Of a stretch of 28,189 nt of DNA, positions 1,874 through 7,612 are shown one piece after another (within the stretch, counting starts at the first letter, position 1; each line of letters opens with the position of its first letter). The notes beneath the pieces are model-generated. The model worked only from the letters and a program-made list of their open reading frames with translations. It made no database searches and was not told the origin of the DNA. Position numbers and translations under genes: made by a program. The DNA comes from a virus. The stretch lies in IMG/VR virus record IMGVR_UViG_3300007611_000006, positions 1 to 28,189 of that record, one strand, 5' to 3'.

Positions 1874-2358
1874 TAGTAAGTCCTCGCATACATGTAGTAA
1901 TCATCGCCTTCAGGGCCGTAGTTTGACATTAAACCTTCTCGATTAAATCTCAAAAACTCTGCCCAGCGAATTGCTGGTTCGTGATTGACATTTACCACAA
2001 TTTGCATTCGCCGTAAATTTAAGCGCTCTCCGATTTTATCAAAAAACCGACGAGCACCACGGCTTAAAAGCGTTCCGTGTTTTAACGCTACGTCACTGGG
2101 CACAATCCACGCTTCGTAATTAGTTGGGTACTTGTATTCCATTCCCATTACTAAAGCTGCTTCGTATCGGTAATTAAGCGTCCATGCACACCGCTGTTGA
2201 CTGACAGCCTCTAAACGCTGGCGCAGATCGGGCAATGACTCAAAAATGCGACGATCAACAGGGTTGGTTACAATGCTATCCATGTGGCGCGGGCTAAATG
2301 GCAGAACCACAACGCCAGGCACTTGAACCATGCCCTGTATTTCTGAGGCCGTTACCAT
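1873..2358 (-). CDS. T7 gp13-like internal virion protein (GNAT fold)
   Basis: 161 residues. The C-terminal half reads 'RRMQIVVNVNHEPAIRWAEFLRF-NREGLMSNYGPEGDDYYMYARTY', the typical ending of the T7 gp13-like / DUF2833 family, which resembles GNAT acetyltransferases ('xxWAExLGFxREGxMRxYGPdG'). In T7, gp13 is needed for virion assembly and is found with internal virion proteins; whether it has acyltransferase activity is not established. The ATG used overlaps the terL stop by 7 nt (ATGGTAA). An internal ATG at residue 26 is an alternative start. Confident in family, less so in activity. Confidence 0.8.
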   Translation of the reverse strand: MVTASEIQGMVQVPGVVVLPFSPRHMDSIVTNPVDRRIFESLPDLRQRLEAVSQQRCAWTLNYRYEAALVMGMEYKYPTNYEAWIVPSDVALKHGTLLSRGARRFFDKIGERLNLRRMQIVVNVNHEPAIRWAEFLRFNREGLMSNYGPEGDDYYMYARTY

Positions 2359-3938
2359 ATGCTGAAGTCCGTGTTGGCTTGGAACTGTTGGGACGGGCCG
2401 GCAGCGCCGTACTTACCGCCGTGGCCTCGGGTCATCGCCCTGTGTTCACCACCACCGAGCATAATGTAGCCAAAAGCGTCACCAACGTGGGAGTGTTCGT
2501 TTTTGTTAGGCGCATCGCGGAAGCGCTCAGTGCCGCCACCAACCGATACCCGCTTGAAGTGATAGCCCCCGGCCAGCGATTTGCGCAGGCGGTTGCAGCT
2601 TTTGTGGATTTGCAGCCCCGGCTTGCGGTCGATAAACCGATTCATCGGCATCGCACCTGCCTCACGGCGTACTTGGAAGTCGTTGCTCGCGGTAGGGCGC
2701 GCATTAAGTCCTAGCGTTCTCAAATGGTCGAAGGCCGTAACCTCGAATATCTCGTCGCGCTTAGAACCCGCTGGGTCGCCCCAGATCAACACGTCCATGC
2801 CTGGGTAGTTAACGTTTATTTCGTTTAGCAGGATTAACCCGAACCGCTCAAGGCCCATGTCATCGGTGACAATCTCTTTCAAAATGTGCCACGCGCCAGC
2901 CTTGGTTCGCTGCCCAAACACAGCGGCGGGGGTCAAACCAAAGTCCAGCCCGATGTGTAGCGGCAGGTTGGTGTCTACCGCAACCTCGTCAGAGGCCATC
3001 ATCGAGTCGTCGTACTCAGGCCAAACCGGGCGACCCTCTTGCACGAAGACATACTGACCACCTGCGTAACAGCGTATCCAGTCTAGGTTCTTACCACCCA
3101 ACTGCTGGTGGTAATACCCAGGTGGCAGGTTGTTAATGTTCTCTGCGTCGGGGTTTACCTTCCAGAATTTATTGGCAGCTGGGACGGCCTCGGTGTCATC
3201 GCGTCCTGTTTCAATTACACCACCAGGCTGGCGGAAGAACTCCCACTTGTACTTGCCGCGGACGGGTTCTTTCTCAGACAGCCTGTACCACCAGTGGTCA
3301 TCGTCCATGGGGTTAGTGTCCATCCAAATCCCACGCCACGGGCAGCCACCGTTAGATTTTGTGGGGTAGCGGCCAACGCGGTGGGTTAGACCCTGCACCA
3401 CGGCCAGTGGCAACTCACGCGCCTCGTTTACCCACGCACCCGTTAACTCCAAAGACAACAGCTTCCTGACGTCCTTGGGTTGGTCAAGGGCCATAAAGAT
3501 AACCTCACAATCAATCCCCGCCGCGTCTCCACGCGATGGCAGCTTAATGTGATGGGTAATAGGAGGCGACCAACGCATCGGCCCCCAGATATTCTCAGGA
3601 AACAACTCATGCCAAGTCTTGATGGTCGTGGTACGCAGCTCAGGGTAAGAGTTACGCACAATCACAAACCGCGAGTACCGCACCCCGTCTACAGGGCTTG
3701 GGGGTTGCTTAACCGCACGCAGCATAATCTCAGCCGCGCAGCCGTAGGACTTACCAGACCCCACCGGCCCCATCAGCCCGCGCACAAACGAATCGTCGTG
3801 CAGGAACTCCCAAGTCGTAGGCGCCCCAGAAAAATCCAGGTTCAGCTTGCCGAGGGCTTCCTCAGCGCTGGTGTCAGTCTGGCGACGCTTGCGACTCGTC
3901 CGCTTGCTCTGATCGCTCGCCTGTTTCGCTCTCGCCAT
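2352..3938 (-). CDS. terL: Terminase large subunit
   Basis: 528 residues with all the expected parts of a packaging motor. Walker A GPVGSGKS is at 57-64, a Walker B-type segment LTGAWVNEA at 165-173 carries the catalytic Glu, and the coupling motif MDTNP is near 206-210. The C-terminal RNase H-like nuclease has acidic residues in GLDFG (D332), GDPAG (D388) and HSHVGDAFGY (D487). The length is normal for podoviral TerL. The ATG is preceded by GAGGTAAAGG, and the gene starts inside the 3' end of terS, which suggests translational coupling. It docks on the portal, cuts concatemeric DNA and translocates it into the prohead using ATP. Confidence 0.97.
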   Translation of the reverse strand: MARAKQASDQSKRTSRKRRQTDTSAEEALGKLNLDFSGAPTTWEFLHDDSFVRGLMGPVGSGKSYGCAAEIMLRAVKQPPSPVDGVRYSRFVIVRNSYPELRTTTIKTWHELFPENIWGPMRWSPPITHHIKLPSRGDAAGIDCEVIFMALDQPKDVRKLLSLELTGAWVNEARELPLAVVQGLTHRVGRYPTKSNGGCPWRGIWMDTNPMDDDHWWYRLSEKEPVRGKYKWEFFRQPGGVIETGRDDTEAVPAANKFWKVNPDAENINNLPPGYYHQQLGGKNLDWIRCYAGGQYVFVQEGRPVWPEYDDSMMASDEVAVDTNLPLHIGLDFGLTPAAVFGQRTKAGAWHILKEIVTDDMGLERFGLILLNEINVNYPGMDVLIWGDPAGSKRDEIFEVTAFDHLRTLGLNARPTASNDFQVRREAGAMPMNRFIDRKPGLQIHKSCNRLRKSLAGGYHFKRVSVGGGTERFRDAPNKNEHSHVGDAFGYIMLGGGEHRAMTRGHGGKYGAAGPSQQFQANTDFSIW

Positions 3939-5544: not shown

Positions 5545-5590
5545 TTGCACTCGCACTAACCGAAACTTGGAAGCAAAAGGGGAAGCAATC

Positions 5591-6514
5591 ATGAAAACCG
5601 ACGTATACCAAAACATCACCGACCAGATCATCGCCGACATCGAATCAGGCAGCGCCAAGGGCTCCGATTGGGTTATGCCCTGGCATCGTGACGGCAAGGG
5701 CGGCGCGGGGTTTCCTGTCTCGCTATCTACTGGCAAGCCATACCGGGGCGTAAATGTTATTGCCCTTTGGTGCAGCGCCAGCCGCCAAGGTTTCGATTCC
5801 AGCCTTTGGGGCACGTTTAAACAGTGGAAAGCGCAGGGCGCCAGCGTTCGCAAAGGCGAAAAGGGCACTAAGGTGGTTTTCTGGAAACAGCTGCGCATTG
5901 AGGATAAGGAAAAGGGCGAGGATGGCGAGCGCGTCATTCCCCTGCTAAAGCAATTCACTGTGTTCAACGCCGATCAGGTTGACGGGTTCGAGGGCGAGGT
6001 TAAGCCAGATTCTGACATTGGCGCAGACCGCGAGGGCGAGGCCGATGTTATCGAAACGGCTGAAGCTATCATCGAGCAAACTGGCGCGGTGATTAACTAC
6101 GGCGGCGATCGGGCTTGCTATGTTCCGGGCATCGATCAGATTTTCATGCCCCAACGCGAGCAATTCACGGCAACCGATACCAGCACGGCAACCGAACGCT
6201 TTTACAGCACGGCTTTTCACGAATTGGCCCATTGGACAGGCGCCGATCATCGCCTGGCACGCGGCAAGGGCAACAAGTTTGGCAGCACTGATTATGCTTT
6301 CGAGGAATTGGTCGCCGAATTGGGCGCCGCGTTTACCTGTGCAATCGTTGGCGTGTCATCCGCGCCCCGTGCCGATCATGCCCAATACATCGCTAACTGG
6401 CTCGAAAAGCTGAAGTCTGACAAGCGCTTCATCTTTGAGGCCGCCAAGCATGCCACCAAAGCCGCCGATATGATTACCGGCGAACAGGCCGAGCAGGAAC
6501 GCAAGGCCGCCTAA
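5591..6514 (+). CDS. ardC: ArdC-like antirestriction protein with zincin-type metallopeptidase domain
   Basis: 307 residues from the ATG at 5591, preceded by AGGGGAAGCAATC. The N-terminal domain (about 1-130), 'VYQNITDQIIADIESG…WVMPWH…PYRGVNVIALW…WKAQGASVRKGEKGT', is the ArdC ssDNA-binding domain. The C-terminal half carries the zinc-binding HELAHWTGADH motif (His210, Glu211, His214), followed by 'YAFEELVAELGAAF' with Glu238/239 as likely third ligand. Family knowledge: ArdC proteins of plasmids and phages protect incoming DNA from restriction enzymes. It is the first gene of the rightward block, where early expression would matter most. The stop codon lies inside the 5' arm of the ribozyme candidate described separately. 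Confidence 0.93.
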   Translation: MKTDVYQNITDQIIADIESGSAKGSDWVMPWHRDGKGGAGFPVSLSTGKPYRGVNVIALWCSASRQGFDSSLWGTFKQWKAQGASVRKGEKGTKVVFWKQLRIEDKEKGEDGERVIPLLKQFTVFNADQVDGFEGEVKPDSDIGADREGEADVIETAEAIIEQTGAVINYGGDRACYVPGIDQIFMPQREQFTATDTSTATERFYSTAFHELAHWTGADHRLARGKGNKFGSTDYAFEELVAELGAAFTCAIVGVSSAPRADHAQYIANWLEKLKSDKRFIFEAAKHATKAADMITGEQAEQERKAA

Positions 6515-6584
6515 AGCCGAAACGCCCTTCGGGGCGTCCGTCGGGGATAGTCTCCCGGCGCTGATGATGGCAGACAACGCAAGG
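6507..6584 (+). ncRNA. Candidate type II hammerhead self-cleaving ribozyme
   Basis: Reading 5' to 3': GAAA at 6519-6522 (G12 A13 A14 A15.1). Stem III is ACGCCC (6522-6527), a TTCG tetraloop, then GGGCGT (6532-6537), with A15.1 pairing U16.1. The cleavage triplet is GTC, with C17 at 6538. Stem I is 6539-6546 paired with 6553-6560 around loop ATAGTC (six Watson-Crick pairs, two wobbles). Immediately after it comes the core CTGATGA at 6561-6567. Stem II is closed by GCC (6516-6518) with GGC (6569-6571), extended beyond an internal loop by GC (6509-6510) with GC (6579-6580). The one irregularity is an extra U at 6568 between the core and stem II. Predicted cut is after 6538, between ardC and the next gene. 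Confidence 0.72.
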
Positions 6585-6592
6585 GGAAGATG

Positions 6593-6853
6593 ATGGCTAA
6601 GGTTGAAACAATGGAAGTAATTGCGCCCGCACGATGGGCAACCGCGCTGGTCTACGGGGATTTTTCCGGGATAGAGGATGACGCGGAATGTGAGCGCGTG
6701 GAGGCGTTCATGCGTGAATTACTTGGCCCGGTGGTGGATGCTATAGGCGAACCGGAATTCCGCGCCGCACTCGGCACTGATACGCCGCATGAATTGGCGG
6801 GCGATTATCTGAAATACACGGTTTTAGTTACTAGGGGCGGGAACGATGATTGA
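6593..6853 (+). CDS. Small phage protein, DUF6926-like
   Basis: 86 residues from the second of two adjacent ATGs (6590 and 6593); AAGGGG six bases before the second is the better spacing. The protein reads 'VIAPARWATALVYGDFSGIEDDAECERVEAFMRELL…', ending 'LAGDYLKYTVLV'. The 'ALxYGDxSGLxDxE' start followed by an F/Y-rich tail resembles DUF6926 phage proteins (from memory, moderate confidence). The function is unknown. It is the first gene after the ribozyme candidate and overlaps the next gene by 8 nt. Confidence 0.7.
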   Translation: MAKVETMEVIAPARWATALVYGDFSGIEDDAECERVEAFMRELLGPVVDAIGEPEFRAALGTDTPHELAGDYLKYTVLVTRGGNDD

Positions 6854-7031
6854 GCGATTACTTATGGGCGCTATCGTTGCCGCCTGCCTAGCTGGCTTAT
6901 ACCTGACCAGCGGCGGCCCGAGTGAGGCGGAACGGGAACGGGCGCAGTATTGCGAAATGGTAGACGCATGGCACGACACTAACGGCGAAGCCGGATGGCC
7001 GCCTTACAAGGGAGAATGCGACGATGAGTGA
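6846..7031 (+). CDS. Small membrane-anchored protein (61 aa), paralogue of the gene at 7430
   Basis: Residues about 4-22 (RLLMGAIVAACLAGLYLT) form a single N-terminal membrane segment or signal anchor. The soluble part contains 'YCEMVDAWHDTNGEAGWPPYKG'. The same layout and the core 'YCEMV…WHDTNGExGWPPYKGE' recur in the gene at 7430. Proteins with a 'YCEMV…GWPxYKG' tail are common small early proteins in Pseudomonas and related phages; none has a function I know. The gene overlaps both neighbours by 8 nt. Confidence 0.75.
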   Translation: MIERLLMGAIVAACLAGLYLTSGGPSEAERERAQYCEMVDAWHDTNGEAGWPPYKGECDDE

Positions 7032-7236: not shown

Positions 7237-7433
7237 CAAGCGAAAAGAACACGAAACGAGCGCGGTTGATCGGCTCGCTGGTCAGTCGGTGGCAGTTGTT
7301 CGCAATCGACCCCCTAGGCCGTCCCGTTGCATATCGCGGCGGGGTTGCGGCTGACGGTGAGCCGGCAAGGGTAAACCAAGTCTTTCCGGTTTTTATGCTC
7401 AGACACTTTATAGATAGCGGGGGTGTGAAATGA
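7233..7433 (+). CDS. Hypothetical small protein (66 aa)
   Basis: 66 residues, basic at the start (TSEKNTKRARL), then 'SRWQLFAIDPLGRPVAYRGGVAADGEPARVNQVFPVFML'. The start is an ATGA overlap with the upstream stop, and the end is an ATGA overlap with the next gene, so it is tightly coupled. No known motif was seen. It is in the early operon of small accessory genes. Confidence 0.6.
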   Translation: MTSEKNTKRARLIGSLVSRWQLFAIDPLGRPVAYRGGVAADGEPARVNQVFPVFMLRHFIDSGGVK

Positions 7434-7612
7434 TCGAGCGGGTATTGATTGGCGCAACCTTGGCCGCGCTGTTAGCCGGCCTTTACCTTACCAGCGGTGA
7501 CCAGAGTGAAGCCGAGCGGCAGTTTGAGCAGTATTGCGAAATGGTGCAGATATGGCACGACACTAACGGCGAGTCAGGTTGGCCGCCATACAAAGGGGAA
7601 GATCAATGCTAG
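7430..7612 (+). CDS. Small membrane-anchored protein (60 aa), paralogue of the gene at 6846
   Basis: A membrane segment at residues about 4-22 (RVLIGATLAALLAGLYLT) is followed by 'YCEMVQIWHDTNGESGWPPYKGE'. About half of the residues are identical to the 6846 gene over the whole length, and several 15-20 base blocks are identical in DNA (such as cagtattgcgaaatggt). The two genes are therefore a diverged duplication separated by two unrelated genes. The function is unknown. It overlaps the zinc-finger gene by 7 nt. Confidence 0.75.
   Translation: MIERVLIGATLAALLAGLYLTSGDQSEAERQFEQYCEMVQIWHDTNGESGWPPYKGEDQC

Follow-up and report, generated by a model that had tools for sequence, protein, structure and literature searches.

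A predicted type II hammerhead ribozyme at the end of ardC in the early gene cluster of a small tailed phage

The ardC locus and its ribozyme

In the window analyzed here (the whole 28,189-nucleotide stretch of IMG/VR virus record IMGVR_UViG_3300007611_000006), ardC is the first gene of a rightward early cluster. Its product matches two Pfam domains, an N-terminal ArdcN domain (E=2.2e-41) and the zincin-like metallopeptidase domain MPTase-PolyVal (E=8.4e-46). The next gene (6590..6853) has no Pfam match, and scans for promoters and terminators near the site between the two genes returned nothing beyond chance level. The early cluster also contains two small paralogous membrane-protein-like ORFs at 6846-7031 and 7430-7612 (MIERxLxGAxxAxxLAGLYLTSG...GWPPYKGE), whose homologs are found in L005, G020, and G007. 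The terminase large subunit, encoded at 2352-3938 on the minus strand, has Methylophilales phage MEP301 as its nearest annotated phage (69.8%), and this similarity suggests that the window belongs to a related small tailed phage. The features of the ardC end and of the region following it are listed below.

5567..6514, plus strand: ardC, 315 aa (TTG start at 5567; in-frame alternative ATG at 5591)
6512..6514, plus strand: TAA stop codon of ardC, separated from stem II by a single base
6515..6579, plus strand: type II hammerhead ribozyme (Rfam RF02276, full length)
6516..6518, plus strand: stem II 5' arm GCC, pairing with GGC 6569-6571
6519-6522, plus strand: GAAA core strand (GAA 6519-6521 plus stem III A6522), read from the sequence
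6522..6537, plus strand: stem III hairpin ACGCCC-UUCG-GGGCGU (arms 6522-6527/6532-6537, loop UUCG 6528-6531)
6538, plus strand: predicted cleavage site, 3' of C17 of the GUC triplet, from its position in the hammerhead fold
6539..6560, plus strand: stem I hairpin (arms 6539-6545/6554-6560; 7 bp with one U-G, plus a possible G-U)
6550..6553, plus strand: pseudoknot strand GUCU in loop I, pairing with AGAC 6572-6575
6561..6567, plus strand: catalytic core CUGAUGA, read from the sequence
6568, plus strand: additional U separating the core from stem II, a common variant in relatives
6569..6571, plus strand: stem II 3' arm GGC, pairing with 6516-6518
6572..6575, plus strand: pseudoknot 3' strand AGAC, pairing with loop I GUCU 6550-6553
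6582..6587, plus strand: Shine-Dalgarno-like AGGGGA of the downstream gene (similar purine-rich stretch in L005, L006, and L068)
6590..6853, plus strand: downstream gene, 87 aa from ATG 6590 (86 aa from ATG 6593, the start common to the L068 homolog)

A search with the Rfam Hammerhead_II model (RF02276), which had been proposed in a preliminary description of this DNA, gave a match at 6515-6579 (+) that scores 62.6 bits, well above the gathering score of 37 (E=6e-11 when the whole window is searched). The alignment is full length (model positions 1-66) and is the single match in the record; besides Hammerhead_II, no RNA family reached its Rfam gathering score within the window. A chance origin of this match is ruled out for practical purposes. 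Of the features that define RF02276, CUGAUGA, GAAA, and C17 (NUH) are present, loops close stems I and III, and stem II is open; at the site of pair 10.1-11.1, where stem II would directly follow the core, one extra U (U6568) intervenes. The predicted cleavage site, C6538, lies 24 nt past the ardC stop codon. The core, stems I-III, cleavage after C6538, and U6568 had all been placed at these positions in the preliminary description, while two of its details have been revised. The outer two-pair helix assigned to stem II was dropped, as AGAC 6572-6575 is the partner of GUCU 6550-6553 from loop I in the known pseudoknot, which is supported in relatives; a pseudoknot between loop I and the 3' tail has been described for most type II hammerheads (PMC3088659). 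The ardC stop codon, previously assigned to an internal loop of stem II, is found just 5' of stem II and outside the fold.

Folded as a single sequence, the ribozyme has an energy that does not stand out (z=-0.5), and this score is uninformative. In the MFE fold, AGCC 6515-6518, containing the stem II 5' arm, pairs with GGCU 6595-6598 at the downstream start codon and not with the core-adjacent GGC; this pairing may represent an alternative, inactive fold.

Conservation of the fold in related phages

The ribozyme is kept at the ardC stop codon in two relatives, L005 (ArdC 99% identical) and L006 (83%). Rfam scores are 64.0 bits in L005, 48.5 bits in L006, and 63.4 bits in L068/G020. A comparison with relatives had been suggested in the preliminary description, and the stems do not lose pairing: GCC/GGC of stem II in the window becomes GUC/GAC in both L005 and L006, and several paired positions of stem I differ between the window and L005/L006 with pairing preserved, so that the changes in both stems are compensatory. 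The pseudoknot strands are retained in L005, L006, and L068 and are unchanged between the window and L005/L006. After the ardC gene of the more distant L007 (ArdC 65%), no such ribozyme was found; therefore, the ribozyme is not required for ardC.

A pattern scan of IMG/VR (GAAACGCCC..GGGCGTC..CUGAUGA) yielded at least 120 stretches, and a second stem III type likewise gave at least 120. Covariation was analyzed in 64 non-redundant phage type II hammerheads among the matches listed. Across these 64 listed sequences, 94.5% of the cells of the structure are paired, compared with 72.9% when shuffled and 36-44% when slid; 185 cells are changed on both sides (46 when shuffled), and the covariation score is 0.53 versus 0.11. 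In the same listed set, each of the six pairs of stem I and each of the three pairs of stem II shows two-sided changes, and 96.6% of the stem I cells are paired. Stem III is invariant in the 64 sequences because it was fixed by the search pattern, and stem III variants with pairing kept (CUCUC/GAGAG, GGGC/GCCC) were found in L023, L033, L046, and L028. At least four pseudoknot pairs can be formed by 96 of 128 ribozymes among the matches listed, against 58 with shuffled tails. Taken together, the Rfam match, the compensatory changes, and the pseudoknot strongly support the earlier proposal that a type II hammerhead separates ardC from the early genes that follow it.

U6568 had been considered the weak point of this proposal. 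It is off consensus and missing in L005, L006, and L068, which are the closest relatives, as would be expected of a decayed or inactive hammerhead in which the extra base disturbs the junction between core and stem II and prevents cutting. Against this, among the matches listed, about a quarter of the phage type II hammerheads (60 of 253, ~24%) carry an extra base before stem II, nearly always U (56 of the 60). The two stem III sets agree in this respect (30 of 130 and 30 of 123 listed relatives, with U in 28 of 30 each), and stem I is paired in 98-100% of the listed carriers, with pseudoknots kept. Since the extra base is frequent and is accompanied by an intact stem I and pseudoknot, U6568 is a common variant and probably no sign of decay. 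Given also the full-length 62.6-bit match, decay of the ribozyme appears very improbable. U6568 could slow cleavage, though it is common in relatives.

Stop codons, neighboring genes, and module junctions

The position of the ribozyme 5' edge was compared with the stop of the upstream ORF of at least 55 aa, where ORFs were defined mechanically and are not annotated genes. Among the matches listed, 190 of 247 ribozymes have their 5' edge within -7 to +1 nt of the upstream stop, whereas about 6 would be found there at random positions. For the first stem III type, 105 of 128 listed ribozymes fall within this range (2.8 at random; 104 of 126 in a rerun), and shifting the positions by 10 nt reduces this count to 0-5 of the 128. 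For the second type, the count is 86 of 121 among the matches listed (3.3 at random). The median distance from the core to the next start is 28 nt among the matches listed. When the next ORF start is at least 80 nt away, 15 of 20 listed ribozymes still abut the stop; therefore, the anchoring is not merely a consequence of compactness. The main text of PMC3088659 does not contain the terms 'stop codon', 'ribosome', or 'translation', and a description may exist elsewhere. Both the anchoring of the 5' edge to the stop codon and the gene-exchange junction presented below appear to be less described before.

Several hammerheads of this type were also seen in a single named phage. Streptomyces phage Puginator (PP978857.1, L002/L429) has ten predicted type II hammerheads above the gathering score in about 8 kb (about 42.0-50.1 kb), all on the coding strand and mostly one per gap between small genes. 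Their spacing from the stop codon is looser, up to about 46 nt. Two related Streptomyces phages, Paolo and Zainub, have matches to the window ribozyme in the corresponding location.

Hammerheads beside an antirestriction gene have been reported previously: they flank ardA in Agrobacterium tumefaciens and precede ardA in three Legionella strains, and mRNA processing was proposed for those flanking ardA (Perreault et al. 2011, PMC3088659). The preliminary description had regarded a tie between a ribozyme and an antirestriction gene as undescribed, which is not correct for this kind of arrangement, while ArdC as the neighbor seems unreported. Our literature search retrieved no paper pairing 'hammerhead ribozyme' with 'antirestriction', and the ardA case in PMC3088659 is described in other words.

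Antirestriction genes recur beside hammerheads, with ardA in A. tumefaciens and Legionella (PMC3088659), with matches to ArdA on both sides of sampled hammerheads, and with ArdC in the window. This recurrence could indicate a ribozyme that regulates ardC in particular, for instance by timing or switching off antirestriction in response to translation or a ligand. However, ArdC directly adjoins the hammerhead only in this lineage (the window, L005, and L006; 3 of 139 sampled hammerheads). Most sampled neighbors are other or unknown genes: ArdA was matched by 1 of 94 upstream and 1 of 98 downstream neighbor proteins, and the others include many unknowns, DNA-binding proteins, integrases, and a transposase. 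Moreover, none of 27 ArdC loci from bacterial genomes has a ribozyme. We thus consider a regulator dedicated to ardC quite unlikely. Among viral ArdC loci, 7 of 62 have a confident hammerhead anywhere, representing about three lineages; five of the seven are below the Rfam gathering score, and adjacency is limited to three contigs. A special partnership between ArdC and the hammerhead was rejected on this basis. Control loci based on terminase, which sample late genes, gave one match in 650 kb, namely the L006 record itself. ArdC is one of many unrelated neighbors and no special partner. In view of these diverse neighbors and the published ardA cases, the ardC arrangement is a new instance and not a new kind.

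Four of the ArdC loci (L023, L028, L033, and L046) have short-loop type II hammerheads, which were detected only by a model built in this analysis and are below the Rfam gathering score. In three of the four, a different small gene is located between ardC and the hammerhead.

Genes on either side of the ribozyme appear to have been exchanged. The window and L005/L006 have ardC and the ribozyme in common and differ in their downstream genes. The window and G020 (L307), which are otherwise distant (terminase 36% identical), have the ribozyme and the 87-aa downstream gene (83.5% identical) in common and differ in their upstream genes. L028, L033, and L046 have different upstream genes before similar ribozymes and the same downstream gene start. 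Such swaps on both sides place the ribozyme at module junctions. They also agree with an element acting mainly at the DNA level, as a conserved palindromic intergenic cassette for the exchange of phage modules with RNA cleavage being secondary. However, a DNA homology linker would keep its sequence and not its pairing, whereas here pairs co-vary while the sequence drifts, and between the window and L005 the ribozyme has diverged more than the gene (79% versus 94% DNA identity for ardC). A catalytic core and a pseudoknot would also have no reason to persist in such a linker, and it is improbable that recombination is the main role of the element.

Proposed function and significance

We favor a self-cleaving RNA at this locus, with a probability of about 0.8: the early transcript of this small tailed phage contains a genuine and probably active hammerhead, which would split the transcript into separate mRNAs. 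We read it as an ordinary phage type II hammerhead with probable activity, and separation of the ardC mRNA from that of the remaining early operon by cleavage is its most likely function. In this model, the early operon would be transcribed from ardC, and the RNA would fold into stems I-III and the pseudoknot between loop I and the 3' tail and then cut itself after C6538. The ardC mRNA would extend 24 nt past an intact stop codon and finish in the GC-rich UUCG hairpin of stem III, carrying a 2',3'-cyclic phosphate. At the start of the downstream mRNA, there would be a 5'-OH and the hairpin of stem I, and the ribosome-binding site of the next gene would come after this hairpin. End hairpins plausibly slow the decay of bacterial RNAs, and this may apply to both new ends. 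As cleavage would provide both new mRNA ends, it would stand in for a terminator plus a promoter, and a long phage transcript could be divided into separately stable mRNAs with no open reading frame broken.

With the ribozyme beginning at the stop codon, stem II and the GAAA strand should be masked by any ribosome that is completing ardC translation. Cleavage would thereby be delayed and may wait until the terminating ribosome departs. A more tentative and rather doubtful extension is that phage type II hammerheads in general are translation-gated processing sites as well as seams of early-module exchange, in which ribosome release at the anchored stop licenses cleavage.

Clustered prophage hammerheads self-cleave in vitro, and cleavage of the ardA cluster has been shown further (Perreault et al. 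2011, PMC3088659). The window ribozyme resembles the type II hammerheads of RF02276 (PMC3088659) in its core, permutation, short stem II, pseudoknot, and intergenic location on the coding strand of a phage, and differs from the consensus in the single added U ahead of stem II, which is frequent among relatives. Like the ardA clusters of A. tumefaciens and Legionella (PMC3088659), it is found beside an antirestriction gene in a phage-derived transcript. Unlike them, it is a single ribozyme, lies downstream of ardC, and belongs to a free phage contig; ardC and ardA differ in name and match different Pfam families. Theta ribozymes of gut phages (PMC10879173) are also self-cleaving ribozymes for phage RNA processing, but they have an HDV-like fold and trim the 3' ends of tRNAs, not mRNAs.

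What hammerheads do biologically in bacteria and phages has been a question since 2011, and the window offers a clean case, in which the ribozyme fits precisely between a named gene and the next ribosome-binding site and close relatives show compensatory changes. This case led to a general regularity, the anchoring to stop codons, and the interest lies there and in phages with multiple ribozymes, not in ArdC. As a named phage whose host is on record, Puginator is a possible experimental system for asking whether ribozymes are used instead of terminators and promoters. If translation gating is true, the upstream mRNA released by each cut could be translated in full, and a new downstream mRNA would arise at the same time.
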